64,000 bases of DNA from assembly GCF_005049235.1 (NCBI RefSeq), contig NZ_SUMD01000010.1, forward strand, positions 1 through 64,000, read 5' to 3'. The notes beneath the pieces were generated by a model. It saw only the letters and a program-made list of their open reading frames with translations, searched no databases and was not told the DNA's origin. This DNA comes from Rhodococcus oryzae. Its GTDB lineage: Bacteria; Actinomycetota; Actinomycetes; Mycobacteriales; Mycobacteriaceae. Shown here piece by piece: positions 32,445 through 46,583 of this stretch. The translations under genes were made by a program, and so were the position numbers. Numbering within the stretch: the first letter of the stretch is position 1; every line of letters begins with the position of its first letter.

Positions 32445-33320
32445 ATGAGTGCTGACGAACGGCAGCTCGGCCGGATGCTGCGCGCCTGGCGCGACAGGGT
32501 TGATCCCGGCGAGGCAGGCATCTCGGTCGGCCCCAAGCGGCGGTCCCCCGGCCTACGACGCGAAGAGGTCGCGCACGCGGCAGGCGTCTCGGTGGACTAC
32601 CTCACGCGGCTCGAACAGGGGCGCTCGCAACATCCTTCACCGCAGGTGCTCTCGGCGCTGGCCCGCACGCTCCGGCTGACGGCCGCCGAACGCGACCACC
32701 TGTACCTGCTTGCCGGCCTGCTCACACCGTCGGCAGGCACCGTCGACGCGCATGTGACGCCGGGGGTGCAGCGCCTCGTCGAGCGGATGCGCGACCTACC
32801 GGTCGCCGTCTATGACGCGCGCTGGACGCTCGTCACATCGAATCCGCTGTGGGATGCGCTGATGGGCGCACCGCTGACCGGCGACGCCCGTGCACGAAAC
32901 CTGCCGTGGCTGATCTTCCTCGGCGCACCGGCCCGGGTGCGCCACAGTCCCGAGGAGCGAGTGGCGCTCGAGTCCGCGGTCGTCGCCGACCTCCGTCAGG
33001 CGAGCGCCCGCTACCCGCGCGACAGCGAGCTCGCCGACCTCGTGCGCGGGCTCCGCGCGGAATCGCCCCGGTTCGCCGAGCTCTGGGAGCGCGCCGAGGT
33101 GACCACGCACACCGCCGACCGCAAGACGATCGAGCACCCCGAGGTCGGGACGATCACGCTCGACTGCGACGTGCTGACCGTGCAGGGCGCCGACCTGCGT
33201 ATCGTCGCCTACTCCGCGGAGGCAGGCAGCCCCGATGCCGCGGCGCTCGACCTGCTCCGGGTCATCGGCGAGGCGCCGCTCAGTCCAGATCGCGCAGTCG
33301 CCGCACCACATCGGCCATAG
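32445..33320 (+). CDS. XRE-family regulator with MmyB-like ligand domain
   Basis: 291 residues. The N-terminal helix-turn-helix (about 10-80) contains the RRSPGLRREEVAHAAGVSVDYLTRLEQGR signature of this actinobacterial family, best seen in LRREEVAHAAGVS. The C-terminal PAS-like MmyB domain (about 105-275) is thought to bind a hydrophobic ligand. It probably regulates the divergent SDR gene. Its last 41 bases overlap the end of the convergent F420 oxidoreductase gene. Confidence 0.88.
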   Translation: MSADERQLGRMLRAWRDRVDPGEAGISVGPKRRSPGLRREEVAHAAGVSVDYLTRLEQGRSQHPSPQVLSALARTLRLTAAERDHLYLLAGLLTPSAGTVDAHVTPGVQRLVERMRDLPVAVYDARWTLVTSNPLWDALMGAPLTGDARARNLPWLIFLGAPARVRHSPEERVALESAVVADLRQASARYPRDSELADLVRGLRAESPRFAELWERAEVTTHTADRKTIEHPEVGTITLDCDVLTVQGADLRIVAYSAEAGSPDAAALDLLRVIGEAPLSPDRAVAAPHRP

Positions 33321-34314
33321 CGGGGTCACGCGACGGATCCGCGGGCAGCGGCAGGGTGACCGCATCGGCGAGCCCGCCGATCCGCTCGTGGATCAGCTCG
33401 GGCAGCTCCCCGTAGCGCGCCGACGGCAGCATCGCGTCGAGCACCTCGTCGGTGACAAGTTCCCGGAGCCGGTCCCAGTCGTTCGTCCGGACCATCCGGG
33501 CCAGCGGTTCGCGCAGATCGCCGAGGCCGCAGCGTTCGAGCTCGCGACGGTATTCCGGGGTCGAGTACAGGAAGGCGAACTGGCGCCGATGTCGCTCTCT
33601 CTCGGTATCGAGGTCGGCCTGCGTCTCGCCGGTGATCACCTGGAATCCCGCGACGAGCTCGCAGTCGTCCGGGTTGCGGCCCGCGGCCGCCGCGCCTGCC
33701 GCCAGCGCCGGGCGGACGTCCTGCTCCAGGAACGACGGGCTCGAGCCGGTGGGGTGCGTGATCAGCCCGTCCGCCACCTCACCCGCCACGGTGCACATCC
33801 GGCGGCCCACCCCGCCCAGGTAGATCGGCGGGCAGGCCATCTCGGCGTCGGTCGCGTCGTGCGGATTGAAGTACGGCTGCATCCGGGTGAAGCCGTAGTG
33901 CTCGCCCTCGAAGGGCGTCAGCGTCCCGGTCCGGAACGTCTCGAACGCCGCCCGGACCACGTGGACGTACTCCGCCATCCGCGCAGCCGGCTCGGCCCAG
34001 GGCATCGCGTACCGCTGCTCGATGTTCTGCCTGATCTGGCTGCCGAGGCCGAGGTGGAACCGGCCGCCGGACATCCTCGCCAGGTCCCATCCCGTGTACG
34101 CGGTGAGCAGCGGGCTGCGGACGAAGGCCAGCGCGACCGACGTCCGCACCACGATCCGGGAGGTGCTCTGCAACGCGATCAGCGCGAGCAGGAACGGATC
34201 GTGCACCGTCTCCGAGACGTGCATGCCGTCGTAGCCCGCGGCCTCGACCCTCCGGGCATAGGCGCCGACGTCGCCGAGCCCCATCCGCGGATCCGCTCCG
34301 GTGAAGACCTTCAC
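33280..34314 (-). CDS. LLM-class F420-dependent oxidoreductase
   Basis: 344-residue luciferase-like TIM barrel. SVALAFVRSPLLTA, LARMSGGRFHLGLGSQI, RTGTLTPFEGEHYGF and PPIYLGGVG are typical of the F420-dependent family annotated as TIGR03617-type. It starts 7 bases after the cysQ stop, so it appears to be the fourth gene of the cysD-cysNC-cysQ operon, an unexpected partner for sulfate activation. The 3' end overlaps the convergent XRE gene by 41 bases. Substrate unknown. Confidence 0.88.
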   Translation of the reverse strand: MKVFTGADPRMGLGDVGAYARRVEAAGYDGMHVSETVHDPFLLALIALQSTSRIVVRTSVALAFVRSPLLTAYTGWDLARMSGGRFHLGLGSQIRQNIEQRYAMPWAEPAARMAEYVHVVRAAFETFRTGTLTPFEGEHYGFTRMQPYFNPHDATDAEMACPPIYLGGVGRRMCTVAGEVADGLITHPTGSSPSFLEQDVRPALAAGAAAAGRNPDDCELVAGFQVITGETQADLDTERERHRRQFAFLYSTPEYRRELERCGLGDLREPLARMVRTNDWDRLRELVTDEVLDAMLPSARYGELPELIHERIGGLADAVTLPLPADPSRDPAMADVVRRLRDLD

Positions 34315-34321
34315 GCCGCCG

Positions 34322-35449
34322 TCACCCGGCCGCCGGGTGCGGCTCGATGATCGCCAGGATCGACTCGATCTCCCCGCCCGGTATCGAGAAGTGCTCGGTG
34401 ATCGCGACGGTGACGACGTGCGCGCCCGCGCCCATGTCGAGCAGGAACCGGGCCACCACGTTCGGCCCCCATTCCCGGAACTCCAGGTCCCGGATGCCGG
34501 TGATCGGCTTGTACTGGTCGCCGTGCTCCAGCTCGGCGATGATCTCGGGCCCGGAATCGCCCGTGCGCTGGCCGTTCTCGACCCGGAGGCAGTCCGCCGC
34601 CAGCCGCACCTTGCTCGCGTCGTGGGTGACCAGGCTGCTCAGGTACTCGCGCACCATCGCCACCCGGGGGCTGTCTGCGGGCGCACCGGTCAGCTCGGCG
34701 ATCCCGTCGAGCAGCGGCCGGGCCAGCTCGGGCCTGCAGATGACGAGGTCCGGCAGGTAGGGATGCGCCTCGTTGTAGATCAGCGGTGTCCCGTCGATCC
34801 GCGAGCAGTGCAGGCCGGCGGCCTGTGCCACCCCGACGGGCGCCGCCGAATCCCACTCCCACTGGCCACCGGCGTGCACGTAGGCGTCGGCCTCGCCGCG
34901 CAGCACCGCCATCGCCTTGGCGCCGGCCGAGCCCATCGGCGCGACATCGGCGCCGATCCGCTCGGCGAGCGGGCCGATGAATTCCGGAGGGCGGCTGTCG
35001 CTCACCAGGATTCGAGGGCGGACCCGTCCTGCCGGACCCGCCAGGGGAGCCGACCCGCTCACGTAGACCTCACCAAGCGCGGGCTGGGCGACGGCGGCCG
35101 TCGTGATCCCCGCGCCGCGTTCCCACAGCGCGACGTGCACCGCCCAGTCGGGCCGTCCCGGCAGCCCGTACTCCCGCGAGCCGTCCAGCGGATCGATGAT
35201 CCACACCCGCGGATTGTCCAGGCGGGCAAGGTCATCCGCGGACTCCTCGGACAGCACGGCGTCAGCCGGACGGTGCTCCCCGAGCAGCCCCAGCAGCAGC
35301 GTGTTCGCCTCCTTGTCGCCCCTGCGCCCGAGCTCACGCGCCTGTGTCTTCTCGAGCGGGGCCTCGCCCAGCTCGCGGTTTCTCAGCTCCAGGAGGAGTT
35401 CGCCCGCACGGGTGGCCAGTTCGCCGGCGAGCACGGCATCGGTCGTCAT
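34322..35449 (-). CDS. cysQ: CysQ-type 3'-phosphonucleotide phosphatase fused to an NTF2-like (DUF8021-type) domain
   Basis: Residues 1-255 form an inositol-monophosphatase-fold PAP/PAPS phosphatase close to M. tuberculosis CysQ. Metal-binding motifs are LSEES (66-70), IIDPLDGSREYG (84-95) and GGQWEWDSAAP (194-204). It would convert PAP, the by-product of sulfotransferases, to AMP. Residues about 260-375 are an added domain beginning MVREYLSSLVTHDASKV and containing CLRVENGQRTG, resembling SnoaL/DUF8021 NTF2-like proteins. Mycobacterial CysQ ends near residue 267, so this is a true fusion in one frame. The start overlaps the cysNC stop (ATGA). Confidence 0.9.
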   Translation of the reverse strand: MTTDAVLAGELATRAGELLLELRNRELGEAPLEKTQARELGRRGDKEANTLLLGLLGEHRPADAVLSEESADDLARLDNPRVWIIDPLDGSREYGLPGRPDWAVHVALWERGAGITTAAVAQPALGEVYVSGSAPLAGPAGRVRPRILVSDSRPPEFIGPLAERIGADVAPMGSAGAKAMAVLRGEADAYVHAGGQWEWDSAAPVGVAQAAGLHCSRIDGTPLIYNEAHPYLPDLVICRPELARPLLDGIAELTGAPADSPRVAMVREYLSSLVTHDASKVRLAADCLRVENGQRTGDSGPEIIAELEHGDQYKPITGIRDLEFREWGPNVVARFLLDMGAGAHVVTVAITEHFSIPGGEIESILAIIEPHPAAG

Positions 35450-37308
35450 AGGTTCAGATACTCCATGATCGTGGCGGCCTGGGCGACGGGATCGCCGTCC
35501 TCGGGTCGCAGCACCAGTTCGGCGTTCGTCGGCGCCTCGTACGGGTCGTCGACGCCGGTGAAGCCGGTGATCTCACCGGCCCTCGCCTTGGCGTACATGC
35601 CCTTCGGGTCGCGGGCCTCGCACTGCTCGATCGGGGTGTCGATGAACACCTCGATGAACGGCAGGCCTGCCGCGATGTGCTGGGCCCGCACCCGGTCCCG
35701 GTCCTCCCGATACGGACTGATCAACGAGGCGACCGCGACCATCCCCGCGTCGGCGAGCAGCTGGGCGACCTCGCCGACCCGCCGGACGTTCTCGGCCCGG
35801 TCCGCGGCACCGAAGCCGAGGTCGGAGTTGAGCCCGTGCCGCAGGTTGTCCCCGTCCAGCCGGTAGGCGGGCACGCCGGAGGCCACCAGCCGTCGCTCGA
35901 GTTCGACGGCGACCGTGGACTTCCCGGACGCGGACAGCCCGGTCAGCCACACCGTGGCGCCCTTGGTGGCGCGCTCGGCCCGGGAGACCGACGCGGCGTG
36001 CCAGACGACCTTCGACTCCTTGAGCGTCGGCCCGAGGATCATGCCTGCCGCGACGGTGTTGCCGGTCGACTCGTCGACCAGGATGAAGCTGCCGGTCACC
36101 CGGCTGCGACGGTACGGGTCGAACAGCAGCGGCTGCTGCGTCTTCAGCTGGATCCGGCCGATCTCGTTGAGCGACAACGACTGCGCGACCTCGTCCCGGT
36201 GCAGGGTGTTGACGTCGAGCCGGTAGTCGAGCCGGACCACCTGAGCCTTGGTGGACTTGGTGGTGTGCATCAGGGTGTATCGGGTGTTCTCGGAGAGCGA
36301 GGACTGTTCGGTGAGCCAACAGACCATCGCGTCGATCTCCTGGCCTACCTGCGGGCGGTTGTTCGGCCGGCAGAGCACGTCGCCGCGGCTGACATCCAGG
36401 TTGTCGGCCAGCGAGATCGTCACCGCGGACGGCGCGAACGCCTCCTCGATCACGGTTCCGCCGGGACCGAAGATGGCCTCGACCGTGGAGGTGAAGCCCG
36501 AGGGCAGCACGACGACCTCGTCGCCCGGCTTGAACACGCCGCTGGCGACGGTGCCCGCGTAGCCGCGGAAGTCGTGCAGCTCGGCGTCAGTCTGGCGCTG
36601 CGGCCGGATCACGTACTGCACCGGGAAGCGCGCGTCGATGAGGTTGCGGTCCGAGGCAATGTGCACGTCCTCGAGGTGGTGCAGCAGCGAGGAGCCCTCG
36701 TACCAGGGCATGTTCTCGGTGCGGGTGACGATGTTGTCGCCCTTGAGCGCGGAGACCGGGATGAACGTCAGGTCGTGCACGTCGAGCTTGATCGCGAACT
36801 GACGGAACTCCTCCTTGATCTCCTCGAAGCGCTCCTGCGACCAGTCGACCAGGTCCATCTTGTTCACGCACAGCACCAGGTGCGGGATCCCGAGCAGGGT
36901 GGACAGGAAGGCGTGCCTGCGGGTCTGCTCCAGCACGCCCTTGCGCGCGTCGACCAGGATCAGCGCGAGGTCCGCGGTGGAGGCCCCGGTGACCATGTTG
37001 CGGGTGTACTGCTCGTGACCGGGGGTGTCGGCGATGATGAACTTGCGGTGCGGGGTGGCGAAATACCGGTGCGCGACATCGATGGTGATGCCCTGCTCCC
37101 GCTCTGCGCGCAGCCCGTCGGTGAGCAAGGCGAGGTTGGCGTACTCGTCGCCGCGCTCGCGACTGCTGCGTTCGACCGCCTCGAGCTGATCCTCGAAGAT
37201 CGACTTGGAGTCGTAGAGCAGCCGGCCGATCAGCGTCGACTTCCCGTCGTCGACGCTGCCCGCGGTGGCGACGCGGAGCAGCTGCAGGGCGTGGTGGGAC
37301 TGCGACAT
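35446..37308 (-). CDS. cysNC: bifunctional sulfate adenylyltransferase subunit 1 / APS kinase
   Basis: 620 residues. CysN GTPase (1 to about 445): GSVDDGKST, DTPGHEQY and NKMDLVDW drive ATP sulfurylase. The CysC part (about 449-620) has P-loop GLSASGKST and LDGDNLRHGLN, and phosphorylates APS to PAPS. The ATG shares a base with the cysD stop (TGATG). No cysH reductase is in this operon, so it is built to deliver PAPS rather than sulfite. Fused CysNC is standard in mycobacteria. Confidence 0.97.
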   Translation of the reverse strand: MSQSHHALQLLRVATAGSVDDGKSTLIGRLLYDSKSIFEDQLEAVERSSRERGDEYANLALLTDGLRAEREQGITIDVAHRYFATPHRKFIIADTPGHEQYTRNMVTGASTADLALILVDARKGVLEQTRRHAFLSTLLGIPHLVLCVNKMDLVDWSQERFEEIKEEFRQFAIKLDVHDLTFIPVSALKGDNIVTRTENMPWYEGSSLLHHLEDVHIASDRNLIDARFPVQYVIRPQRQTDAELHDFRGYAGTVASGVFKPGDEVVVLPSGFTSTVEAIFGPGGTVIEEAFAPSAVTISLADNLDVSRGDVLCRPNNRPQVGQEIDAMVCWLTEQSSLSENTRYTLMHTTKSTKAQVVRLDYRLDVNTLHRDEVAQSLSLNEIGRIQLKTQQPLLFDPYRRSRVTGSFILVDESTGNTVAAGMILGPTLKESKVVWHAASVSRAERATKGATVWLTGLSASGKSTVAVELERRLVASGVPAYRLDGDNLRHGLNSDLGFGAADRAENVRRVGEVAQLLADAGMVAVASLISPYREDRDRVRAQHIAAGLPFIEVFIDTPIEQCEARDPKGMYAKARAGEITGFTGVDDPYEAPTNAELVLRPEDGDPVAQAATIMEYLNL

Positions 37309-38234
37309 CAGAAGTACCCCTCCTTCTTGCGGTCTTCCATCCCGGCCTCGGAGATCCGGTCGTCGGCGCGGGTGGCCCCCCGCTCGGTGATGCGGCTGGC
37401 CGCCACCTCGGTGACGACGGCGGCAGCGGTGGCCGCCGAGGACTCCACGCAGCCGGTGCAGGTGGCATCGCCGACGGTCCGGAACCGGACGAGCTCCTCG
37501 TACGACTCCTCCCCCGGGAGCAGCGTCAGGAACCTGGTGTGCGCCAGCAGCATTCCGTCGCGCGGCACCACCTGGCGGCGGTGCGCGTAGTAGATGGCCG
37601 GCAGCTCGATCTGTTCCTCGAGGATGTACTGCCAGATGTCGAGTTCGGTCCAGTTGGACAGCGGGAACACCCGGATGTGCTCGCCCTTGCGGTGCTTGCC
37701 GTTGTAGAGGTTCCACAGCTCGGGTCGTTGCGCGCGCGGATCCCATTGCCCGAACTCGTCGCGGAAGCTGAACACCCGCTCCTTGGCGCGCGCCTTCTCC
37801 TCGTCGCGGCGGGCCCCGCCGAAGACCGCGTCGAACTCGTTGTCGCGGATACCGCGCAGCAAGGCGTGCGTCTGCAGCCGGTTGCGGCTGGCCCGCGGCC
37901 CCTGCTCCTCGGTGACGCGGCCCGCGTCGATGTCGTCCTGCACCCGCGAGACCACGAGGCGGAGGCCGAGCTCGTCGACCACGCGGTCCCGGAATTCGAT
38001 CACCTCGTCGAAGTTGTGGCCGGTGTCGACGTGCATCACCGCGAAGGGCAGCGGCGCGGGCCAGAAGGCCTTGGCGGCGACGTGCAGCATCACCACCGAG
38101 TCCTTGCCCCCGGAGAACAGAAGGACGGGGCGCTCGAAGGTGGCGGCCACCTCACGGAAGATGTGCACCGCTTCCGCCTCGAGCGCGCCCAGGTGGGACA
38201 GCTCGTAGGCGGGTGGTGCGTGTCGGGTTGTCAT
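37308..38234 (-). CDS. cysD: sulfate adenylyltransferase subunit 2
   Basis: PP-loop ATP sulfurylase, 308 residues. LLFSGGKDSVVMLH is the PP-loop; DTGHNFDEVIEFRD, FGGARRDEEKARAKER and the CTGC segment near residue 262 are family motifs. ATG 38234 has GAGGAG seven bases upstream. It is the first gene of the cysD-cysNC-cysQ-LLM operon. Its promoter region carries the two palindromes at 38269-38286 and 38312-38332, copies of those before the sulfotransferase cluster. Confidence 0.97.
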   Translation of the reverse strand: MTTRHAPPAYELSHLGALEAEAVHIFREVAATFERPVLLFSGGKDSVVMLHVAAKAFWPAPLPFAVMHVDTGHNFDEVIEFRDRVVDELGLRLVVSRVQDDIDAGRVTEEQGPRASRNRLQTHALLRGIRDNEFDAVFGGARRDEEKARAKERVFSFRDEFGQWDPRAQRPELWNLYNGKHRKGEHIRVFPLSNWTELDIWQYILEEQIELPAIYYAHRRQVVPRDGMLLAHTRFLTLLPGEESYEELVRFRTVGDATCTGCVESSAATAAAVVTEVAASRITERGATRADDRISEAGMEDRKKEGYF

Positions 38235-38268
38235 GTGCGGCTCCTCGACTGGATCGGGGTCCGAGCGT

Positions 38269-38286
38269 CGGTACATTTTTGTACCG
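38269..38286. promoter_or_regulatory. operator-like palindrome CGGTACA-TTTT-TGTACCG before cysD
   Basis: Seven-base arms around four T, centred about 43 bases upstream of the cysD ATG. The same GGTACA-N4-TGTACC core recurs at 39356-39371, before the Rv3531c-like gene. The binding protein is unknown; the neighbouring IclR regulator is a candidate. Confidence 0.65.
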
Positions 38287-38311
38287 AGGCGGTTCGAAAT
38301 TGAAGTCTGAG

Positions 38312-38332
38312 CCGACAATAGAACGTGTTCTA
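38312..38332. promoter_or_regulatory. KstR-type operator before cysD (overlaps the iclR stop codon)
   Basis: Read on the minus strand: TAGAACACGTTCTA followed by TTGTCGG. The first 14 bases fit the KstR consensus TnnAACnnGTTnnA exactly. All 21 bases are identical to 39313-39333. The iclR stop codon TAG is the first half-site's edge. It lies about 80-98 bases upstream of cysD. Confidence 0.7.
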
Positions 38333-39301
38333 GGTCGGGTCAATCCCCTCGCCGATCGACACCGGACCCGGATCCGCGCGCCGGTCCGGCCATCTCCCAC
38401 CCACCTCCGCCGTCACCGCGTCGGCCGCCGCCGCGAGGGCCTTTCCGCGACGTTCGATCTCGGCGCCGCTGATCGAGGAGCCCACGTCCAGGGTCAGGAC
38501 CAGCGACTGATGCCCGTCAGCGTCGTAGGCGGGCGCGGCGATCAGGCTCACCGGATACTCGGCATCAGCGGCGAGCTCACGCCCCAGGTACACCCGCTCA
38601 CCCAGGCTCGAGACCATCTCGCCCAGCAGCTCGCGGATCTCGGACGGCAGGTCCTGCCCGGCGACGCCCTGCATCAGCGAGAAGAGCCTGCGCCCCATCG
38701 GGGTCAGCCGCTCGACGAGGTAACCCGCATCGCGGCAGTCCTCGACGACCTCGCGCAACAGGTCGCGATCGAGCACCACCGGCAGCGTCGGCTCGCGACG
38801 CAGCCACGCCTTCAGGTCGTCGTCGGCGCTCCACAGCACGTACATGAGCCCCACCGGGGGCGCGAACGGGTACGCCTGCCCCACCTTGACTGCGGTCCGT
38901 CCGCCCTTCATCCCAGCCGGCGTGGCCACCTCGAGGATCATGATCCGGTCGCCCACCACCGCGGACGCCGTGCAGACGGACCCGAACTCGGCGGCGAGCC
39001 GGTCGAGATGGGTGCGCGCGATCGGACCGACCGCGAAGCCCCGCTGCGCCGCCCGCCCGGCGGCGATCAGCGCGGGGCCGAGCCCATAGGTCTTCGACGC
39101 CGGATCGCGAGTGAGATAGCCGCCGGAGACCAGTGCGGAGAGGATCCCCAGGCAGGTCGGCTTGCTGATCGAGAGCGCGCGGGCCAGCTCGGACAGCCCG
39201 AAGCGCTGTTCCTGGCGGGCCACCAGGTAGTCGAGAACCTGCACCACCCGCTCGGTCGGGGGTGAGCGACGCCCGGCGACGGTGTCCTGCTCTTCAGCCA
39301 T
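38330..39301 (-). CDS. IclR-family transcriptional regulator
   Basis: 323 residues. Winged helix-turn-helix (about 17-75: LDYLVARQEQRFGLSELARALSISKPT region, with LSELARALSISKPTCLGIL). The IclR effector domain follows (about 90-265, with GTALLA-like VATPAGMKGGRTAV and YPFAPPVGLMYVLWS). ATG 39301 has AAGGAG seven bases upstream. It is placed exactly between two promoter regions bearing identical operator pairs: the operator at 39313-39333 begins 12 bases upstream of its start, and the other overlaps its stop. It is likely autoregulated, and likely a controller of both flanking operons; ligand unknown. Confidence 0.9.
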   Translation of the reverse strand: MAEEQDTVAGRRSPPTERVVQVLDYLVARQEQRFGLSELARALSISKPTCLGILSALVSGGYLTRDPASKTYGLGPALIAAGRAAQRGFAVGPIARTHLDRLAAEFGSVCTASAVVGDRIMILEVATPAGMKGGRTAVKVGQAYPFAPPVGLMYVLWSADDDLKAWLRREPTLPVVLDRDLLREVVEDCRDAGYLVERLTPMGRRLFSLMQGVAGQDLPSEIRELLGEMVSSLGERVYLGRELAADAEYPVSLIAAPAYDADGHQSLVLTLDVGSSISGAEIERRGKALAAAADAVTAEVGGRWPDRRADPGPVSIGEGIDPT

Positions 39302-39312
39302 TGACCACTCCT

Positions 39313-39333
39313 TAGAACACGTTCTATTGTCGG
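39313..39333. promoter_or_regulatory. KstR-type operator between iclR and the Rv3531c-like gene
   Basis: TAGAACACGTTCTA followed by TTGTCGG on the plus strand. It is an exact KstR consensus match and an identical inverted copy of 38312-38332. It sits 12 bases before iclR and about 60 before the divergent gene, so binding could repress both. Confidence 0.75.
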
Positions 39334-39355
39334 ACCATCACCGGTCTACCACCTA

Positions 39356-39371
39356 GGTACATATTTGTACC
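39356..39371. promoter_or_regulatory. operator-like palindrome GGTACA-TATT-TGTACC
   Basis: Six-base arms, 22 bases downstream of the KstR-type block and 22 bases before the GTG at 39393. Same core and same order as at the cysD promoter (38269-38286). Confidence 0.65.
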
Positions 39372-39392
39372 ACTTGAACGCGAGGAGCGGGA

Positions 39393-40559
39393 GTGCTGAC
39401 AGAACCCCTGGCCGAGGCCATCGCCGAGGCCGAGAAGCTGGTCGAGGCCGCCCCACACATCCGGTCCGAACAGGACCTGCTCGAGGGCTACCAGTACCTC
39501 GCGGGCGGGATCCTGGCCACCGTGCACGCCGCGTGGGCCACCGAGAAGACGCACCCCACCTTCATCCAGGGCACCGGCCCGTACATGAAGATGGGCCTCG
39601 ACAACCCGGACACCCTGTACTTCGGCGCCCGGATCAACGGCGACGCGGAGTACGTCGTCACCGGGAGGCGCGGCACCACGGCCGATCTGAGCTTCCAGGT
39701 GCTCAGCGGCAACTACACCAACGCCAACGTGCCGGGCAGCGTGACGGCTTTCGACGACCGCGAACTGCACATCGAGGACGACGGTTCGTTCGTCGTGACA
39801 TTCGGACCCGGCCCGGCCGACGGCCGCACCAACCACTTCACCCTCGCACCGGACTCCTCGCAGCTGGTCGTCCGCGAGGTCTACAGCGACTGGAGCCAGC
39901 AGCGCGGCACCATCCGGATCGATCGGGTGGACCGGATCGGCGTGCCCGGCGACGCCCTCACCAAGGAGGAGACCGAGAAGCGTTACGCCAGGGCGGGCAA
40001 GGCCCTGGTAAGCCGGGTCAAGACCTGGCTACAGTTTCCCGAGTGGTTTTACCTCAAGCTCCCGGTGAACACGATGACCGAACCGCGGCTGACCCCCGGC
40101 GGCCTGGCCACCCAGTTCTCGTCCGTCGGCCACTACGAGCTCACCGATGACCAGGCGATGATCATCACCGTCCCGAAATCCGATGCGCCGTACCAGGGCT
40201 TCCAGCTCGGCAGCCTCTGGTACATCTCGCTCGACTACACAGGGCACCAGACCTCGCTGAACAACGCGCAGGCCCAGGCCGATCCCGACGGGATGATCCG
40301 GATGGTGGTCAGCGAGCGCAATCCCGGCGTCACCAACTGGATCGAGACGGTCGGGCACCCGCGCGGATACCTGCAGTTCCGCTGGCAGCGCACCTCTCGG
40401 GAGTTCACCCCCGCCGACGGACCGACGGTCGAGGTGGTGAACCTGGACGAGGTCGCGTCGAAGCTGCCGTTCCACGAACAGAACAAGATCACCTCGGAGG
40501 ACTGGACCGCCCGCATCGCGGCACGCCAGGCCGCCGTCGCCAACCGGATGCTGGGGTAG
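39393..40559 (+). CDS. conserved protein resembling Rv3531c (steroid cluster)
   Basis: 388 residues. No catalytic motif is recognised. Moderately conserved landmarks include THPTFIQGTGPYMKMGLDNPD, YFGARINGDAEYVVTGRRG and SERNPGVTNWIETVGHPRG. It has the look of DUF1214-type proteins and of M. tuberculosis Rv3531c, and it is followed by homologues of Rv3530c and Rv3529c in the same order. GTG 39393 has GAGGAG seven bases upstream. It starts the plus-strand operon controlled from the iclR intergenic region. Function unknown; the steroid link is inferred from synteny and the operator. Confidence 0.75.
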   Translation: MLTEPLAEAIAEAEKLVEAAPHIRSEQDLLEGYQYLAGGILATVHAAWATEKTHPTFIQGTGPYMKMGLDNPDTLYFGARINGDAEYVVTGRRGTTADLSFQVLSGNYTNANVPGSVTAFDDRELHIEDDGSFVVTFGPGPADGRTNHFTLAPDSSQLVVREVYSDWSQQRGTIRIDRVDRIGVPGDALTKEETEKRYARAGKALVSRVKTWLQFPEWFYLKLPVNTMTEPRLTPGGLATQFSSVGHYELTDDQAMIITVPKSDAPYQGFQLGSLWYISLDYTGHQTSLNNAQAQADPDGMIRMVVSERNPGVTNWIETVGHPRGYLQFRWQRTSREFTPADGPTVEVVNLDEVASKLPFHEQNKITSEDWTARIAARQAAVANRMLG

Positions 40560-40566
40560 TACGACC

Positions 40567-41349
40567 ATGACAAATCTCTTGCAGGACAAAGTCGTTGTGA
40601 TCTCGGGTGTCGGACCCGCGCTCGGCCGCACCCTCGCGCTGCGGTGCGCCGCCGCCGGGGCCGACCTGGTGCTGGCCGCCCGCACCCAGTCCCGGCTCGA
40701 CGAGGTGGCCAAGGAGGTCACCGACCTCGGCAGGCGCGCGGTCACGGTGTCCACCGACATCACCGACCAGGCCTCCGCCGAGAACCTGATCGCCGCCAGC
40801 GTCGACGCCTACGGCAAGGTGGACGTCCTGGTGAACAACGCGTTCTCGGTTCCGTCGATGAAGCCGCTCGCGCGCACCGACTACCAGCACATCCGCGACA
40901 GCATCGAGCTGACCGTGCTCGGCGCGCTGCGGCTGACCCAGCTGTTCACCCCCGCCCTCGAGGAGAGCAAGGGCGCGGTGGTGAACATCAACTCGATGGT
41001 GCTGCGCCACTCGCAGGAGCGCTACGGCAGCTACAAGATGGCCAAGTCCGCCCTCCTGGCGATGTCGCAGTCGCTCGCCACCGAGCTGGGCCCCAAGGGG
41101 ATTCGGATCAACTCGGTCGCGCCCGGGTACATCTGGGGCGACACCCTCAAGCAGTACTTCGAGCACCAGGCGAAGAAGTTCGGGATCACCGTCGAGCAGA
41201 TCTACGAACACACCGCGGCGGCCACCGACCTCAAGCGGCTGCCGGAGACGGAGGAGATCGCGGACGCGGTGATCTTCCTGGCCTCCCCGATGGCCAGCGC
41301 CATCACCGGCCAGTGCCTCGACGTCAACTGCGGCGAATTCCACCACTAG
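40567..41349 (+). CDS. short-chain dehydrogenase resembling Rv3530c
   Basis: 260-residue SDR. The glycine motif is atypical, SGVGPALGR, in place of TGxxxGIG, as in Rv3530c-like proteins. LVNNAF replaces LVNNAG, and the catalytic Ser and YGSYKMAK are present. The C-terminus GQCLDVNCGEFHH is characteristic of this branch. It begins 7 bases after the upstream gene's stop. It probably oxidises or reduces a hydroxyl or keto group on a steroid-like substrate, but this is inferred only from context. Confidence 0.85.
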   Translation: MTNLLQDKVVVISGVGPALGRTLALRCAAAGADLVLAARTQSRLDEVAKEVTDLGRRAVTVSTDITDQASAENLIAASVDAYGKVDVLVNNAFSVPSMKPLARTDYQHIRDSIELTVLGALRLTQLFTPALEESKGAVVNINSMVLRHSQERYGSYKMAKSALLAMSQSLATELGPKGIRINSVAPGYIWGDTLKQYFEHQAKKFGITVEQIYEHTAAATDLKRLPETEEIADAVIFLASPMASAITGQCLDVNCGEFHH

Positions 41350-41369
41350 GCGAAGGGCCACCGAGCACC

Positions 41370-42506
41370 ATGACTGAACGCACCACCGTCGGGACCGTCG
41401 AGGACCTGCACGCCTCCGCCACCCGGATGACCGGCCTGACCGACTTCGGCACCGACGACTACACAGAGGCGCTCGGAGTCCTGCTCGACTCCTACGCGAG
41501 CGATGAGGACCTGACGCCGTTCGGCAGCAAGATCTCTCGGGTCTTCCTGCGCGGCGCCCTGGTCGCGAGACTGCTCAGCGAGGCCGCCTGGAAGCAGCAC
41601 CCCGAACACGCCGACGTGCCGATCGAGCGGCCGATCTTCGTCACCGGACTGCCCAGGACCGGCACCACCGCCCTGCACCGGCTGCTCACCGTCGATCCCG
41701 CGCACCAGGGCCTGGAGATGTGGCTGACGGAGATGCCGCAGCCACGTCCGCCGCGCGAGAGCTGGGAGTCGAACCCGGTCTTCCAGGGCATCGAGGCCCA
41801 GTTCAGCAAGCACCACATCGAGCACCCCGAGTTCATGGGCGTGCACTACATGTCGGCGGGCGAGGTCGAGGAGTGTTGGCAGCTGCTGCGCCAGACCTTC
41901 AAGTCGGTGTCCTACGAGTGCCTGGCCAACCTGCCGACCTACTCGAAGTGGCTCGAGGGGCAGGACTGGACCAATGCCTATGCGCGGCACAAGAAGAACC
42001 TGCAGCTGATCGGACTGCCGGATCGGGACCGCCGGTGGGTACTGAAGAACCCGAGCCATCTGTTCGCGCTCGACGAGTTGCTCGCGGTGTACCCCGACGC
42101 GCTGATCGTGCAGACCCACCGCGCGCCGAGCACGATCATCCCGTCCGTGTGCAGCCTGGCCGAGCAGGCCACCGACGGCTGGTCGAACAAGTTCAAGGGC
42201 GAGGTGATCGGGCGCAGCCAGCTCGAACTGTGGGCACGCGGCCTGGAGCAGTTCAACGCCGCACGGGCCCAGCACGATCCGGCCCAGTTCATCGACGTCG
42301 ACTACCAGGACTTCGTCGCCGACCCGCTCGGCACCGTGGAGGGTATCTACACCCGCTTCGACCTCCCGCTGACCACGCAGGCCCAGCAGGCAATGGAGGC
42401 GATGCACGAGGAGAGCCGGTCCGGTGACCGGCGGCCCGCCCACAAGTACACCCTCGAGGAGTTCGGTCTCACCGCAGCCGAGGTCGAGGAACGCTTCGGC
42501 GCCTGA
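41370..42506 (+). CDS. PAPS-dependent sulfotransferase family protein resembling Rv3529c
   Basis: 378 residues. The 5'-phosphosulfate loop is TGLPRTGTTALHRLL (PRTGTT at 95-100), and the 3'-phosphate-binding segment is QTHRAPSTIIPSVCSLAE. The N-terminal VEDLHASATRMTGL and RPIFVTGL segments are very close to M. tuberculosis Rv3529c. It would transfer sulfate from PAPS to an alcohol acceptor and release PAP. The adjacent cys operon makes PAPS and removes PAP, which supports this activity. Acceptor unknown; a steroid or lipid alcohol is plausible. Confidence 0.88.
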   Translation: MTERTTVGTVEDLHASATRMTGLTDFGTDDYTEALGVLLDSYASDEDLTPFGSKISRVFLRGALVARLLSEAAWKQHPEHADVPIERPIFVTGLPRTGTTALHRLLTVDPAHQGLEMWLTEMPQPRPPRESWESNPVFQGIEAQFSKHHIEHPEFMGVHYMSAGEVEECWQLLRQTFKSVSYECLANLPTYSKWLEGQDWTNAYARHKKNLQLIGLPDRDRRWVLKNPSHLFALDELLAVYPDALIVQTHRAPSTIIPSVCSLAEQATDGWSNKFKGEVIGRSQLELWARGLEQFNAARAQHDPAQFIDVDYQDFVADPLGTVEGIYTRFDLPLTTQAQQAMEAMHEESRSGDRRPAHKYTLEEFGLTAAEVEERFGA

Positions 42507-42528: not shown

Positions 42529-43077
42529 TCACGCGACCTCCGGCACCACGCCGGCGCGCAGGGCGGGGATCACCTGCAGCAGTGCCTCCGCGATCTCCTC
42601 CCCCACCCGCTCGAACGCCTCCCGGCGCAAACCCACCGGATCGCTGATCGACTCGCCGCCGGGCCGGACATCGTCGCGGCCCGCGGCGATCTCGCGCACG
42701 GTCCGCGCCCCGGTCAGCCACACGATGCGGTGTGCCTCCGGCAGCGTGAAGGTCCGATCCGCGGCCTCCGGCAGCTGTCGCACCGCCTCGTCCCGCACGG
42801 ACTCCGACATGGCCAGCACGAGATCGGCCCGTTCGATCATCTCGGGCCGCAACCGACGAGCGACGAAGCCCGACGGATCGCCGCCGAGCCCGCGGAGCAC
42901 CTCGGCCGCGACCGGCTCCATCGGGAACCCGACCAACGCCCTGGTCCCCGCGCTCTCCGCGCTGAGCGTCGCCGCACCGGCAGAGACCGGTCCCAGATCC
43001 GCGGCAATGGCGATCGCGAGGCGCTCGGCGATGGCCGAGCGGCACACGTTGCCGTTGCAGACGAACAAGACGTGCAT
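42529..43077 (-). CDS. low-molecular-weight protein-tyrosine phosphatase family
   Basis: 182 residues. The N-terminal P-loop is VCNGNVCRS (Cys-x5-Arg), and the general-acid Asp-Pro is seen in SISDPVG. It is slightly longer than typical LMW-PTPs (about 150-160), with an inserted MIERADLVLAMSESVRDEA region conserved in the actinobacterial branch. It is monocistronic and convergent with the sulfotransferase gene; stops are 22 bases apart with no clear terminator. It could be a tyrosine phosphatase or, less likely, an arsenate-reductase-like member. Confidence 0.87.
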   Translation of the reverse strand: MHVLFVCNGNVCRSAIAERLAIAIAADLGPVSAGAATLSAESAGTRALVGFPMEPVAAEVLRGLGGDPSGFVARRLRPEMIERADLVLAMSESVRDEAVRQLPEAADRTFTLPEAHRIVWLTGARTVREIAAGRDDVRPGGESISDPVGLRREAFERVGEEIAEALLQVIPALRAGVVPEVA

Positions 43078-43174
43078 GGCCGGACTGTATCGACGCCGAA
43101 TGGCGTCCGCGAGCCGGGAAATCGCGTCAACGGGCGTATCGCTGGATGTTCATCGCAGGTACCCGAGGGGTTCA

Positions 43175-43197
43175 CCGCCCCGTTCATTCCGGGGCGG
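43175..43197 (-). terminator. terminator hairpin after the hydrolase gene
   Basis: CCGCCCCG and CGGGGCGG (8 bp, 7-base loop) lie 12 bases past the minus-strand stop at 43209. Confidence 0.6.
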
Positions 43198-43208
43198 GCC
43201 CCGCTGGG

Positions 43209-44054
43209 CTACCGCGAGTGCGCCGCCAGGTGTTCACCGAGCAGCGCATCCACCCGCTCCGGCACCTCGTCGGGGATCCAGTGGCTGACACCCTCGAGTA
43301 CCTCGAAGGCGTACGGGGCGTCGACGTACCGCGGCGTCAACGCGGCACCGACGGGCCCGATCGCGGTGTCGCGGTCGCCCAACACATGCAGGGTGGGTAC
43401 CCGCACCCTGGCCGATGTCCGGCCCAGCGTCGTGAAGACCATGCCGCGATACCAGTTCAGTCCGCCGCGGGCCCTGGCCCGCTCCCGCAGCGACCCGGCA
43501 TCACGGGCAGCATCGTCCGGCGACGCCCCGGTGGCGATCAGCTTCCGGCGGAACGTGTCACGGGACAGCACCAGCTCAGGGAGCACGGGGACCTGGAAGG
43601 CGAGCATGTACCAGGACTTGAGCACCTGACGGCTGGTGAGCACCGCCCGGACGAAGGCGGCCGGGTGCGGCACGGACAGCGTCGTCAGGGTGCGGACCAG
43701 GTCGGGGCGGTTCGCGGCGGCGGTCCATGCGACTGCGGCTCCCCAGTCGTGGCCGACCAGGTGCACGGGTCCCGCACCCGCCTGCTCGATCAGGGCAACC
43801 ACGTCCGCGGTCAGCTGCGAACTGCGATAGGCCCGGCGAGACCGCGGCCGGGCACCGGGCGAGGCCCCCCGCAGGTCGGGCGCCAGGGTCCGGAAGCCGC
43901 GCCGGTGCAGCAGCGGCGCCAGCCGATCCCAGGAACGCGAGTCCTGCGGGAAGCCGTGCAGCAGCACCACCGGGACACCGTCGAGTGGCCCGGTGTCGCG
44001 GACGTCGAAGACCAGCCCGTCCCGGCTGTACGAGGCGATCCGGTCGCCGCTCAT
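43209..44054 (-). CDS. alpha/beta hydrolase, epoxide-hydrolase-like
   Basis: 281 residues. The oxyanion motif is HGFPQDSRSW, the nucleophile elbow is GHDWGAAVAW (Asp nucleophile, typical of epoxide hydrolases and dehalogenases), the acid is in LGDRDTAIG, and the catalytic His is in GVSHWIPDE. The Asp nucleophile excludes an ordinary serine esterase. The start overlaps the stop of the upstream amidohydrolase (ATGA), so the two are co-translated. Substrate unknown. Confidence 0.88.
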   Translation of the reverse strand: MSGDRIASYSRDGLVFDVRDTGPLDGVPVVLLHGFPQDSRSWDRLAPLLHRRGFRTLAPDLRGASPGARPRSRRAYRSSQLTADVVALIEQAGAGPVHLVGHDWGAAVAWTAAANRPDLVRTLTTLSVPHPAAFVRAVLTSRQVLKSWYMLAFQVPVLPELVLSRDTFRRKLIATGASPDDAARDAGSLRERARARGGLNWYRGMVFTTLGRTSARVRVPTLHVLGDRDTAIGPVGAALTPRYVDAPYAFEVLEGVSHWIPDEVPERVDALLGEHLAAHSR

Positions 44055-45844
44055 ACAGTGGCCCCGGCGTGTACCCGCCCGCCAACCGAAGGCGCCTTGG
44101 CGCCCGCGGGCAGGAACTGTCCGGTCTTCTCGACGCCGAAGCCGGGGGTGAACTCGCCGTCCCGGTAGACGAGCCTGCCGTTGATGACAGTGGCCACCGC
44201 CGCGGCGTCATTCCGGTTCACCATCCGGCGCAGGCCGCCGTATTCGGGCACCGACTCCTCGAACAGTCCGTCGACCGAGGCGTCCAGACCCGCGGGATCG
44301 ATCACCACGAGATCGGCGCGGTCGCCCTCGCGCAGGTGGCCCGCGTCGATGCCGTACCAGTCGGCGAGCTCGCCGGTGAGCCGGTGGATCGCACGCTCGA
44401 TCGTGAGGAACGGCTTGCGCGAGGACCGGGCGTCGTTGACGCGCTTGAGGAGTCGGATCGGGTAGTTGTAGAACGCCATGTTGCGCAGGTGCGCGCCCGC
44501 GTCGCCGAACCCCATCTGCACGCCCGGGCTGGCGGCCAGCTTGTCGGCGAACTTCGGCCGGTGGTTCGCGACCGTGGTCCGCCACCGCAGCGCCTTGCCG
44601 TACTCCACCACCAGGTCCAGGTACGCATCGACCGGGTGGACCCCCCTCTCGTCGCCCACCCGGCCGAAGGTCTTGCCGATCAGGGTCTCGTCGGGGCAGC
44701 CGACGATGACCGCGTCGTAGAAATTGCGGTGCCAGATGCGCGGTGAGAACTTGTTGTCGTAGTCCTTGCGGAACCAGCGGCGGTAGTCCTCGTCCTGGAG
44801 CAGCGCGTTGCGTTCCACCTCGTTCTTGAGGTGCAGGGCGGCGGCACCCGCGCCGAACTCCTCGAACACCACCAGGTCGATGCCGTCCGCGTACACGGTG
44901 AACGGAACCGGCAGGTGCTGCCAGCGGAAGTTGGTCTTGGCGAAGCGGTTCAGCAGCGGCGCCGCCGTCAGCATGAAGTACACGATCGCCGGGTACGCCT
45001 TCGAGTCGGCGCCGGAGAGCAGCGAGGTCTTGAGCGCCTTCTTCCGCCCGATCGCCGAGCTCTCGACGAAGAACGCGGCCACGTTGGGGTGCAGGTTGAT
45101 CGTCGGCGCGCTCTGCAGGATCTTGCCGCGATCGCGCAGGATCCGGTTGAGGAAACGGAACTCGCGCCAGCGCGCGTACGTCGACGGCAGTGAGCGCGAA
45201 CGGTATTCGTCGCCGTCGATCTTGTCGAGGGCGTTGGTCATCGAGGACAGTCCGAGGAACCCGGCGTCGATGGCCTCGATGAGCATCGAGCCCATCCGGT
45301 CGAGCTCGGCGGCGGTGGGCTTGGTCTTTTTGTCCGTGCCGCGGCCGAGACCGAGGACATGGGTGCGGATGTCGGAGTGGCCGATGAAACCGGCGACGTT
45401 CGGCCCGAGCGGCAGCGCGTTCAGCGCGTCGACGTACTCCGCGGGCCCGCGCCAGGTCTTGTTCTCCTCCAGGATCCGCAGCACCGACTCGCGCGGCACG
45501 GCCTCGACCCGGCTGAACAGGTCCGCGCACTCGCGTGGGGTGGAGTAGACGGTCGAGAGCGAGCAGTTGCCCAGGACGACGGTGGTGACGCCGTGGCGGA
45601 CCGACTCGGGCAGCCCGGGGCTGACCAGCGCCTCCGCGTCGTAGTGGGTGTGCACGTCGACGAAGCCGGGGAGCACCCACTTGCCTGCCGCGTCGATGAC
45701 CTCGGTGTCCGGTCCGACGGGGAGCGCAGCGGTGGAGACCGTCACGACGACGCCGTCCCGGATCCCGAGATTGCGCAGCTGACCGTCGGTCCCGGTGCCG
45801 TCGAACCACAGGCCGCCGTTGACCACGATGTCGAACTCGGACAT
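44051..45844 (-). CDS. amidohydrolase, N-acyl-D-amino-acid deacylase-like
   Basis: 597-residue metal-dependent TIM-barrel hydrolase. The metal motif is GFVDVHTHYDAE, with VTTVVLGNCSLS, IGHSDIR and GFGDAGAHLRNM further on. The C-terminal composite beta domain re-forms with ADLVVIDPAGLD and the VINGRLVYRDGEF ending. It resembles M. tuberculosis Rv2913c. ATG 45844 is five codons inside a longer frame. It is divergent from a TetR-family gene with paired repeats between them. Confidence 0.86.
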   Translation of the reverse strand: MSEFDIVVNGGLWFDGTGTDGQLRNLGIRDGVVVTVSTAALPVGPDTEVIDAAGKWVLPGFVDVHTHYDAEALVSPGLPESVRHGVTTVVLGNCSLSTVYSTPRECADLFSRVEAVPRESVLRILEENKTWRGPAEYVDALNALPLGPNVAGFIGHSDIRTHVLGLGRGTDKKTKPTAAELDRMGSMLIEAIDAGFLGLSSMTNALDKIDGDEYRSRSLPSTYARWREFRFLNRILRDRGKILQSAPTINLHPNVAAFFVESSAIGRKKALKTSLLSGADSKAYPAIVYFMLTAAPLLNRFAKTNFRWQHLPVPFTVYADGIDLVVFEEFGAGAAALHLKNEVERNALLQDEDYRRWFRKDYDNKFSPRIWHRNFYDAVIVGCPDETLIGKTFGRVGDERGVHPVDAYLDLVVEYGKALRWRTTVANHRPKFADKLAASPGVQMGFGDAGAHLRNMAFYNYPIRLLKRVNDARSSRKPFLTIERAIHRLTGELADWYGIDAGHLREGDRADLVVIDPAGLDASVDGLFEESVPEYGGLRRMVNRNDAAAVATVINGRLVYRDGEFTPGFGVEKTGQFLPAGAKAPSVGGRVHAGATV

Positions 45845-45893
45845 TGTCGCGCTCCTCACATCGAGTAAGTGTTACCCGAGGTTACATATCCCG

Positions 45894-45931
45894 TTGAGTA
45901 GAAGTCAATGGACCGGTTGAGCATTACTCAA
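45894..45931. promoter_or_regulatory. paired TTGAG-N5-CTCAA-like repeats, candidate TetR operators
   Basis: TTGAG-CATTA-CTCAA (45917-45931) is a perfect inverted repeat. A second, imperfect copy TTGAG-TAGAA-GTCAA starts 23 bases earlier at 45894. Both are in the amidohydrolase/TetR divergent promoter. Confidence 0.5.
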
Positions 45932-45944
45932 TAGAGTGCTCGGC

Positions 45945-46583
45945 ATGGCCGCTGCCCCTCGCTCCCCCGCCGATCGGCGCGCCCAGATCCTCGAGGTCGC
46001 GGTGCGGATGCTCGAGACGGAGCCCTTCGACGACCTGTCCATGGACCGGGTGGCCGCGGAGGCCGGGGTGTCGCCGCCGCTGCTGTTCCACTACTTCAAG
46101 AACAAGCAGGGCTTCCGGAACGCGGTGCTCGAGGCCAGCGCGAAGGCCCTGCAGCAGCGGATGACGCCCGACCAGGCGCTGCCGACGTCCGCCCAGCTCC
46201 GCGCCGGCGTGGAGACCTTCGTCGACGCGGTGGTCGCGCACCCGACGAGCTACCTGGCCGTGATGCGGTTGGCGGGCAGCGGCGAGGAGGGCATGCGCCG
46301 GATCTATCGCGGGATGCGGCGCACCTTCACCGACTGGATCGTGCGGGCGCTGGCCGAACTCGGGCTGCCCACCACCCCCGCCGTCGACGCGGCCGTGCAG
46401 GGCTGGCAGGCCTTCATGGAGGAGGTGGTCCTGTCCTGGCTGGACGAGCCCACCATGACCCGAGTCGAGGTGATCGAGCTGTGCGAGCGCGCCTTCTACC
46501 ACCTGCTGCCCGCCGCCGGCCTCGACGTCGAGCAGATCGCCCTTGCGCTGGCCGCGGCGCGGCCGGATACCGCCTCGCCCTAA
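45945..46583 (+). CDS. TetR-family transcriptional regulator
   Basis: 212 residues from ATG 45945 (GTG 45936 would add three). N-terminal helix-turn-helix: RRAQILEVAVRML, then LSMDRVAAEAGVSPPLLFHYFKNKQGF, the latter best seen in VAAEAGVSPPLLFHYF. The C-terminal ligand domain is unassigned. It likely represses itself and the divergent amidohydrolase-hydrolase operon. The stop shares bases with the convergent ABC ATPase stop (CTAA). Confidence 0.9.
   Translation: MAAAPRSPADRRAQILEVAVRMLETEPFDDLSMDRVAAEAGVSPPLLFHYFKNKQGFRNAVLEASAKALQQRMTPDQALPTSAQLRAGVETFVDAVVAHPTSYLAVMRLAGSGEEGMRRIYRGMRRTFTDWIVRALAELGLPTTPAVDAAVQGWQAFMEEVVLSWLDEPTMTRVEVIELCERAFYHLLPAAGLDVEQIALALAAARPDTASP

Follow-up and report, generated by a model that had tools for sequence, protein, structure and literature searches.

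Among described systems, a close relative of the locus considered here is found in the mycobacterial KstR regulon. Its gene trio Rv3531c-Rv3529c / MSMEG_5932 was linked to the repressor KstR in 2007, and the passages on it assign it no role (PMC1995591). According to the same passages, KstR bound an Rv3531c/Rv3532 probe in mycobacteria and MSMEG_5932 was derepressed 6-fold in a kstR deletion (PMC1995591). In this study, we analysed 64,000 nucleotides from Rhodococcus oryzae (contig NZ_SUMD01000010.1; hereafter the window) that carry the same trio by homology, with TNNAACNNGTTNNA before its first gene, which encodes a protein with a domain of unknown function (DUF). The window locus differs from the mycobacterial regulon in that cysD-cysNC-cysQ and an iclR gene are built in, together with both operators described below. 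Neither 'sulf' nor 'cysD' occurs in the main text of Kendall 2007, and the second operator is not in its passages on these genes (PMC1995591). We suspect that the locus is a sterol-induced sulfo-conjugation cassette of the steroid-degradation regulon; judged from sequence, this is probable, with steroid conjugation as the predicted function.

Two further systems resemble the locus in their sulfate-activating genes. In the passages on the CysN2C-CysD2-Stf0 cluster of R. qingshengii IGTS8, CysNC and CysD paralogues are coupled to a sulfotransferase using 3'-phosphoadenosine 5'-phosphosulfate (PAPS), and a separate assimilatory CysD1N1-CysH set has adenosine 5'-phosphosulfate (APS) reductase signatures (PMC8557817). 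That cluster differs in gene order (cysNC, cysD and Stf0 side by side), in its Stf0-type enzyme and in its link to dibenzothiophene instead of steroids, and those passages mention no KstR or IclR operator, short-chain dehydrogenase (SDR) or DUF gene. We rejected the IGTS8 cluster as the window locus on gene order; its description sets it apart. In M. tuberculosis, Rv1285-Rv1286 likewise provide CysD and CysNC as a PAPS source, with the reductive branch leaving from APS; there, one complex feeds both branches, and the control reported in the passages concerned is by stress and sulfur, not by steroids (PMC4373884, PMC3141025). Among the literature matches listed for KstR, sulfotransferase and PAPS genes, which are weak evidence as they come from open-licence literature, no description of such a module was found. 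The passages from PMC7807495, PMC9782250, PMC3161971, PMC4810484, PMC4881515, PMC7593942 and PMC3068626 hold nothing on point about sulfur genes or IclR.

The locus consists of two divergent gene runs. On the minus strand the order is iclR (38330..39301), cysD (37308..38234), cysNC (35446..37308), a gene for a CysQ-like phosphatase (34322..35449) and one for an F420-dependent oxidoreductase, with iclR just upstream of cysD. Divergent from iclR, the plus strand carries a DUF1214-like gene (39393..40559), an SDR gene (40567..41349) and a Sulfotransfer_3 gene (41370..42506), which we take to be Rv3531c-like, Rv3530c-like and Rv3529c/Stf1-like, respectively. The IclR-family regulator, which serves as the conserved marker of the locus, has an HTH_IclR domain (PF09339, 34.5 bits against a cut-off of 22).

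A preliminary description of this DNA held that the promoters of cysD and of the trio carry, in the same order, an identical 21-bp block of KstR type and GGTACA-N4-TGTACC, and the sequence bears this out. Read in the direction of their respective genes, the two promoters have TAGAACACGTTCTATTGTCGG as their longest common string, a 21-mer at 39313-39333 on the plus strand and 38332-38312 on the minus strand. In pattern searches GGTACA-N4-TGTACC, the presumed IclR site, lies at 39356-39371 (plus) and 38285-38270 (minus). Order and orientation agree, and the spacers, recomputed from the site coordinates, are 22 bases on the trio side and 26 on the cysD side, as had been stated. Within the window, GGTACAN4TGTACC with up to two mismatches has two matches, both exact (shuffle mean 0.51), and TNNAACNNGTTNNA has three, two at these promoters and one within the sulfotransferase gene (shuffle mean 0.09). 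Across the 5.37 Mb genome, exact GGTACAN4TGTACC occurs three times and exact TAGAACNNGTTCTA six times, with two of each at this locus. The third exact palindrome of the genome is at G000:C31:57579-57594 (L003, L053), with a 35% LLM-like match about 6 kb off.

The block had been described as an operator. It does hold a KstR palindrome in both promoters (38319-38332 and 39313-39326), but it is not the operator alone, as the 21-mer also spans a -10-like hexamer, TATTGT. Between 38200 and 39500, the only two sigma-70-like promoters found are TTGACC-N18/N17-TATTGT, one per side (shuffle mean 0.1), with the -35-like TTGACC at 38343-38338 on the minus strand, inside the end of iclR, and at 39301-39306 on the plus strand. 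Given these predicted promoters, the KstR palindrome would lie between -35 and -10 and overlap the -10 box; the second palindrome falls about 26-45 bases beyond the -10 box, within the presumed leader. A KstR motif overlapping the -10 is also a feature of the kstR promoter, where the overlap with the -10 region is partial in the passages of Kendall 2007 (PMC1995591).

The gene set recurs widely. An IclR protein alignment served to scan contigs of relatives; of the 164 relatives found, the best 80 were taken as named loci, and gene presence was scored by tblastn at >45% identity. Among these 80, cysD was found in 73, the DUF gene and the sulfotransferase in 79 each, the SDR in 73 and a cysQ relative in 48. 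All of cysD, cysNC, cysQ, DUF, SDR and sulfotransferase are present in 44 loci, and 22 have the same set minus cysQ at this threshold. Seven are without cysD: five in Microtetraspora, Actinomadura and Microbispora, one in Aldersonia (L131) and one on a short contig (L168). The full gene set occurs in Rhodococcus, Prescottella and Speluncibacter; in Nocardia, Amycolatopsis and Actinophytocola, cysD-cysNC and the trio are present and no cysQ was detected, and Kutzneria additionally lacks the SDR. R. jostii is among the species with the locus (L115). When the neighbourhoods of 100 loci were clustered, in counts for which the gene caller misses some genes, seven core genes came out on top (88 to 44 of 100) and the next cluster reached 18 of 100. 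We regard it as nearly certain that the PAPS-sulfotransferase cassette is a dedicated functional unit.

The operators recur with the genes, as counted against shuffles of single letters, not dinucleotides. The KstR motif is exact in 69 of 79 trio promoters (shuffled expectation 0.14) and in 38 of 73 cysD promoters (0.06), and 64 of the latter have it with at most one mismatch (1.7). GGTACA-N4-TGTACC with at most one mismatch is found in 67 of 79 trio promoters (shuffled 0.0). On the cysD side it is exact in 18 of 73 promoters and within one mismatch in 27 of 73, and many other cysD promoters have a symmetric or near-symmetric variant of GGTCCA-N4-TGGACC. The broader pattern GGTNCA-N4-TGNACC, counted over a set enlarged by unnamed loci (L041 and L073 for the trio, L041 for cysD), is exact in 60 of 81 trio promoters and within one mismatch in 79 (shuffled 0.37); the corresponding cysD figures are 39 and 42 of 74 (shuffled 0.7). 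The cysD promoters of Nocardia and Amycolatopsis gave no good match to the second palindrome. Both operators, each with at most one mismatch, occur together in 111 promoters, always with the KstR site upstream, and the start-to-start spacing is 43-48 in 66 of 71 trio promoters and 42-49 in 40 of 40 cysD promoters. A search of related genomes for the locus and both palindromes, as the preliminary description had proposed, finds the pair, its order and its spacing kept over several genera. The lack of such conservation that would have refuted that description is thus not seen, and its interpretation is largely supported.

These comparisons bear on the idea that the shared promoter block is merely a recent duplication within the locus, with no joint control. 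The identity of the 21-mer in both promoters of the host strain would fit such an origin. However, the sites are kept over several genera, their letters drift between species while layout (order and spacing) stays, and variants of the KstR site occur, along with GGTCCA-N4-TGGACC or near before cysD in the R. jostii type. We give a duplication without joint control next to no weight.

The protein that reads the second palindrome may be the local IclR regulator. R. maanshanensis NBRC 100610 (L162) and genome G051 (L041) have the whole module twice, the additional copy being accompanied by an IclR paralogue (59 and 55% identical). No exact KstR-type site was found in L041 and none in either L162 promoter. 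On the trio side both copies have GTTCGAAATATGGAAC, in long gaps that also hold a few other imperfect palindromes, and on the cysD side they have GTTCCA-N4-TGGAAC (L162) and ATTCCA-N4-TGGAAC (L041). It is the IclR paralogue, rather than the KstR site, that the palindrome accompanies; we take this as the best evidence that IclR binds it, and we infer that the local IclR protein does so in the window. We judge joint control of both operons by KstR and IclR to be very likely.

In the host genome, a bona fide KstR is encoded at L052:12271-13008 (NF033703 equivalog, 340.8 bits against a cut-off of 280; it also matches solved KstR chains), with TAGAACGTGTTCTA just before its gene. Genome-wide there are 53 sites matching TNNAACNNGTTNNA, whereas the reversed pattern gives 6; the 53 include a site between hsaA and kshA and another next to a kstD-like gene. 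In these assignments hsaA and hsaC were identified by NCBIfam, kshA, hsaF and hsaG by solved structures, and kstD by eye.

In several genomes, the trio itself sits with steroid-degradation genes. Four loci (L218, L219, L220 and L226) have the order kshA / hsaA, hsaC, DUF, SDR, sulfotransferase; in L225 and L232, hsaC is followed by the DUF and sulfotransferase genes and then a CysQ-like gene. The trio is among kshA and hsaFG in L272 and L274 and beside kshA in L273. L227 and L233 have a CysQ-like gene that runs divergently from the trio, and TAGAACGTGTTCTA lies just before the DUF gene. With HsaC as the marker of steroid degradation, counted in relatives at E <=1e-140, the window's own genome and 100 relatives divide into 44 with both HsaC and the sulfotransferase, none with the sulfotransferase only, four with HsaC only and 53 with neither. 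This cut-off dropped the HsaC matches of G052, G068 and G100 (E 1e-87 to 1e-94), and the counts also leave out a 38% sulfotransferase in G100. In a sample of 345 genomes drawn from the class, which partly overlaps the relatives, there were 37 with both, 10 with the sulfotransferase only, three with HsaC only and 295 with neither. Of two sulfotransferase matches in G169, one was examined. The steroid link that had been proposed is supported by the presence of KstR, the co-occurrence with hsaC and the position of the trio beside kshA and hsaA-hsaC.

The same data bear on two other views of what the steroid connection means. In the first, the steroid is a signal and not the substrate, and the acceptor is an envelope or storage lipid, or a general metabolite, that is needed during growth on sterols. 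Known mycobacterial sulfotransferases, in the passages on them, make sulfolipid-1 and sulfomenaquinone, and this view would also accommodate the Streptosporangiales-type genomes described below, which carry the trio with HsaC and KstR under cut-off, and a paralogous cassette that has no nearby KstR site. Nevertheless, HsaC is present in every one of the 44 sulfotransferase-positive relatives, several genomes have the trio inside or next to kshA/hsaA-hsaC/hsaFG clusters, and the accompanying SDR and DUF protein would fit a small-molecule substrate, so we consider a lipid or general metabolite unlikely as the acceptor. In the second view, sulfation is an obligate catabolic step, in which the sulfate turns a steroid hydroxyl into a leaving group and the trio belongs to the pathway proper. 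The sulfotransferase is indeed present in 44 of 48 HsaC carriers and in several genomes stands beside hsaA-hsaC, but four HsaC-positive relatives lack it, 6 of the 79 DUF-bearing named loci have no SDR beside the DUF gene, and Rv3529c and Rv3530c are not confirmed as essential in the passages of a 2019 compilation (PMC6429209). An obligate step seems improbable to us on these grounds.

Several results weigh against a sterol-switched conjugation cassette and have to be set beside those that favour it. The main one, against an exclusive tie to hsaC-type degradation, comes from three Streptosporangiales-type genomes (G184, G331 and G387) that have the whole trio and a KstR-type site with HsaC-like proteins of 237-326 bits (cut-off 450) and KstR-like proteins of 141-149 bits (cut-off 280). 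Overall, 10 of 47 sulfotransferase-positive genomes in the class sample are without HsaC at the cut-off, of which seven carry 51-52% sulfotransferases but lack a DUF gene in the stretch examined; a distant SDR (30-31%) is present in two of the seven. Conversely, the sulfotransferase is missing from five distinct HsaC-bearing genomes (four relatives and three of the class sample, two being shared). Rv3529c and Rv3530c are neither confirmed nor predicted to be essential on cholesterol in the 2019 passages (PMC6429209). A second KstR-like TetR protein in the genome (G000:C12:394880-395428; 119.5 bits, under the cut-off) might use similar sites, KstR control of the cysD operon is predicted from its operator, and the operator counts are not independent because the species are related. 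On the sulfation side, the CysQ-like protein reaches 77.8 bits in TIGR01331 (bisphos_cysQ), under the cut-off of 228.8, and no cysQ relative was detected at >45% identity in the Nocardia and Amycolatopsis loci. Finally, 16 of 55 sulfotransferase matches are not near an APS kinase, 6 being further than 16 kb from one and 10 having none on the contig.

The remaining 39 of these 55 matches, from the window's own genome and 100 relatives, have an APS kinase no more than 16 kb away on their contig (the listed full-length matches and one partial match, in G019, were counted, and matches of 28 bits or fewer left out). In the window, the small and large subunits of ATP sulfurylase, CysD and CysNC, the latter with a fused APS kinase, are assigned by profiles of the sulfate-activating complex (TIGR02039, 456.3 bits against 396.6; NF004035, 977 against 715; TIGR00455, 222.9 against 138.7). 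CysNC is also the single match to the APS kinase family PF01583 in the genome, with 33 of 61 first-look candidates scored, so the window operon appears to be the sole PAPS source. Assimilation has its own genes, a sir-cysH-cysD-cysN run on contig 27 (L170; sir named by eye) whose CysN is without the kinase, and the possibility that the window cysD is the assimilatory copy was rejected on account of this set. The window CysD is a second genomic copy, 64% identical to the assimilatory one. The CysH of that run shows CC and CxxC motifs and scores above the cut-off of the APS-reductase profile TIGR02055 (239.5 bits against 235.3) and below that of the PAPS-reductase profile TIGR02057 (161.5 against 254.2); it also passes the broader NF002537, named phosphoadenylyl-sulfate reductase (273.8 against 154). 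With an APS-reductase signature in CysH, PAPS should not be needed for sulfite. The earlier claim that the operon is not built for sulfite production is supported by a cysH elsewhere with its own cysD-cysN and by the position here of the only APS kinase found in the genome. The companion claim is that this operon makes PAPS and removes 3'-phosphoadenosine 5'-phosphate (PAP); the profiles of the sulfate-activating complex agree with its first half, and for its second half the CysQ-like protein falls under the equivalog cut-off. The CysQ-like label comes from the inositol monophosphatase family (Pfam Inositol_P) and from gene context, and PAP is presumably what the enzyme removes.

Alternatively, cysD-cysNC-cysQ could keep sulfur in balance by detoxifying sulfite or cycling APS/PAP, a role suggested for CysN2CD2-Stf0 of IGTS8, with the adjacency of the trio incidental. 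In the passages on that strain, CysD2 and Stf0 were found only in dibenzothiophene cultures (PMC8557817). The IGTS8 gene order is unlike that of the window, however, the two operators are common to both operons across genera, and a second, divergent cassette repeats the gene set, which together make a sulfur-balance role very improbable. This second cassette, seen in L214-L217, four of the seven genomes with a second cassette-like pair, has cysQ, cysD, cysNC, SDR, sulfotransferase and DUF genes side by side, at identities of 46-47% (cysD), 51-52% (cysNC), 50-52% (SDR), 56-57% (sulfotransferase) and 28-32% (DUF). The CysD of L214 is equally far from the window CysD (47%) and the assimilatory CysD (46%). 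Three of these four stretches have no KstR-type site, and in the fourth, L215, the site is more than 3 kb from the cassette. At L214:4183-11159, a PF00756 esterase gene follows the cassette and a TetR-family gene precedes it.

The sulfotransferase of the window passes the Sulfotransfer_3 profile (PF13469, 200.8 bits against a cut-off of 27), and its closest solved structure is PDB 2zq5, matched over 375 of 378 residues (E 1.8e-168). We take 2zq5 to be Stf1 of M. tuberculosis and 2z6v to be Stf9 of M. avium; 2zq5 is not known to be linked to PAPS genes, unlike the enzyme described here. The motifs TGLPR-(T/S)-GTT and H250 R251...S259, presumably the PAPS 5'-phosphosulfate loop and the 3'-phosphate motif, are present in 35 of 35 aligned sulfotransferases. 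They agree with the PAPS-type enzyme of the preliminary description, for which PAPS use is predicted, and a PAPS-independent sulfotransferase was rejected on the same family and motifs. In a tree of the 35 sequences, the window protein falls within the Rhodococcus/Prescottella set (100/98), and the second-cassette copies group with L162 (100/100).

The two other proteins of the trio are a PRK07890-subfamily SDR (NF005909, 433.7 bits against a cut-off of 258) and the DUF protein, whose DUF1214 match is just under cut-off and which matches the DUF1254/DUF1214 fold over most of its chain. All strong fold matches are to uncharacterised proteins, among them 6ans, VPA0106 and VPA0735 (identity <=26%), which we assume to be of the DUF1254/DUF1214-type class. 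In M. tuberculosis, Rv3531c is specifically required on cholesterol according to the passages of the 2019 compilation (PMC6429209).

We suggest that the cassette could work as follows. CysD-CysNC would make PAPS from sulfate, and the Stf1-like sulfotransferase would use it to sulfate a steroid-derived molecule at a hydroxyl or phenol. The PAP left over from this transfer would presumably be removed by the CysQ-like phosphatase. Whether the acceptor group is keto or hydroxy is probably decided by the SDR, and the DUF1214-fold protein may act on or carry the same substrate. KstR would repress both operons from the palindrome that overlaps the -10 box. Steroid-CoA intermediates, the ligands of KstR, would lift this repression. 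At GGTNCA-N4-TGNACC, about 45 bp downstream in both leaders, IclR may form a second gate, presumably sensing the substrate or the product. The likely benefit would be the conjugation of a toxic or poorly soluble intermediate of ring degradation.

On balance, the acceptor of the sulfotransferase is probably steroid-derived. Phenolic and catecholic secosteroids are the substrates of HsaA and HsaC, and our best guess for the acceptor is a phenolic or catecholic 9,10-secosteroid because the trio stands beside hsaA-hsaC in several genomes. We tentatively go further, to a possibility that we would not yet call probable: an undescribed branch in which the Stf1-like enzyme sulfates phenolic or catecholic secosteroids, or a sibling hydroxysteroid, and in which the only detectable PAPS supply here is placed under KstR and a dedicated IclR and so switched by sterols.

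Other features of the neighbourhood vary between lineages. The LLM-class F420-dependent oxidoreductase at the end of the minus-strand run (33280..34314; TIGR03617, 327 bits against a cut-off of 278) follows cysQ at about 100 bp or less in the R. maanshanensis group alone (L090, L091, L095 and L099 among the 80 named loci), and in Prescottella-type loci a 62-66% relative is found about 3-5 kb further on. By locus, R. maanshanensis is the nearest named relative of the host (IclR 97% identical). Downstream of the trio, 42529-46583 holds genes for a low-molecular-weight phosphatase, an alpha/beta hydrolase, an amidohydrolase and a TetR protein, which recur in 9 to 17 of the 100 clustered loci and so look like lineage-specific neighbours. 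A small protein of about 160 residues, SnoaL/NTF2-like by eye, occurs in 14 of 100 loci, including Microtetraspora, Microbispora and Amycolatopsis, and at L134:10902-11384 it adjoins the IclR gene. An HsaC-like gene at C12:387296 is about 7 kb from the second KstR-like protein, and this C12 region is perhaps another steroid cluster. Between the sulfotransferase and an IclR-like gene, L218:8373-10555 encodes a TetR-type regulator and a major facilitator superfamily efflux pump (DHA2/EmrB-like, 229.8 bits, just under the cut-off of 230.2). At this one locus, a drug-efflux-type pump beside the sulfotransferase would fit conjugation followed by export.

In this locus the KstR-linked trio is paired with an operon for PAPS synthesis, which includes a presumed PAP phosphatase and has the same two operators, and a sulfated steroid-derived product thereby becomes a concrete prediction that can be tested in a laboratory Rhodococcus. 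A candidate ligand-sensing IclR regulator with a defined predicted operator emerges as well, together with a reason for the second cysD and cysNC in these steroid degraders. The conserved block and KstR site in many steroid-degrading soil bacteria point to an undescribed sulfate-tagging branch of steroid breakdown.

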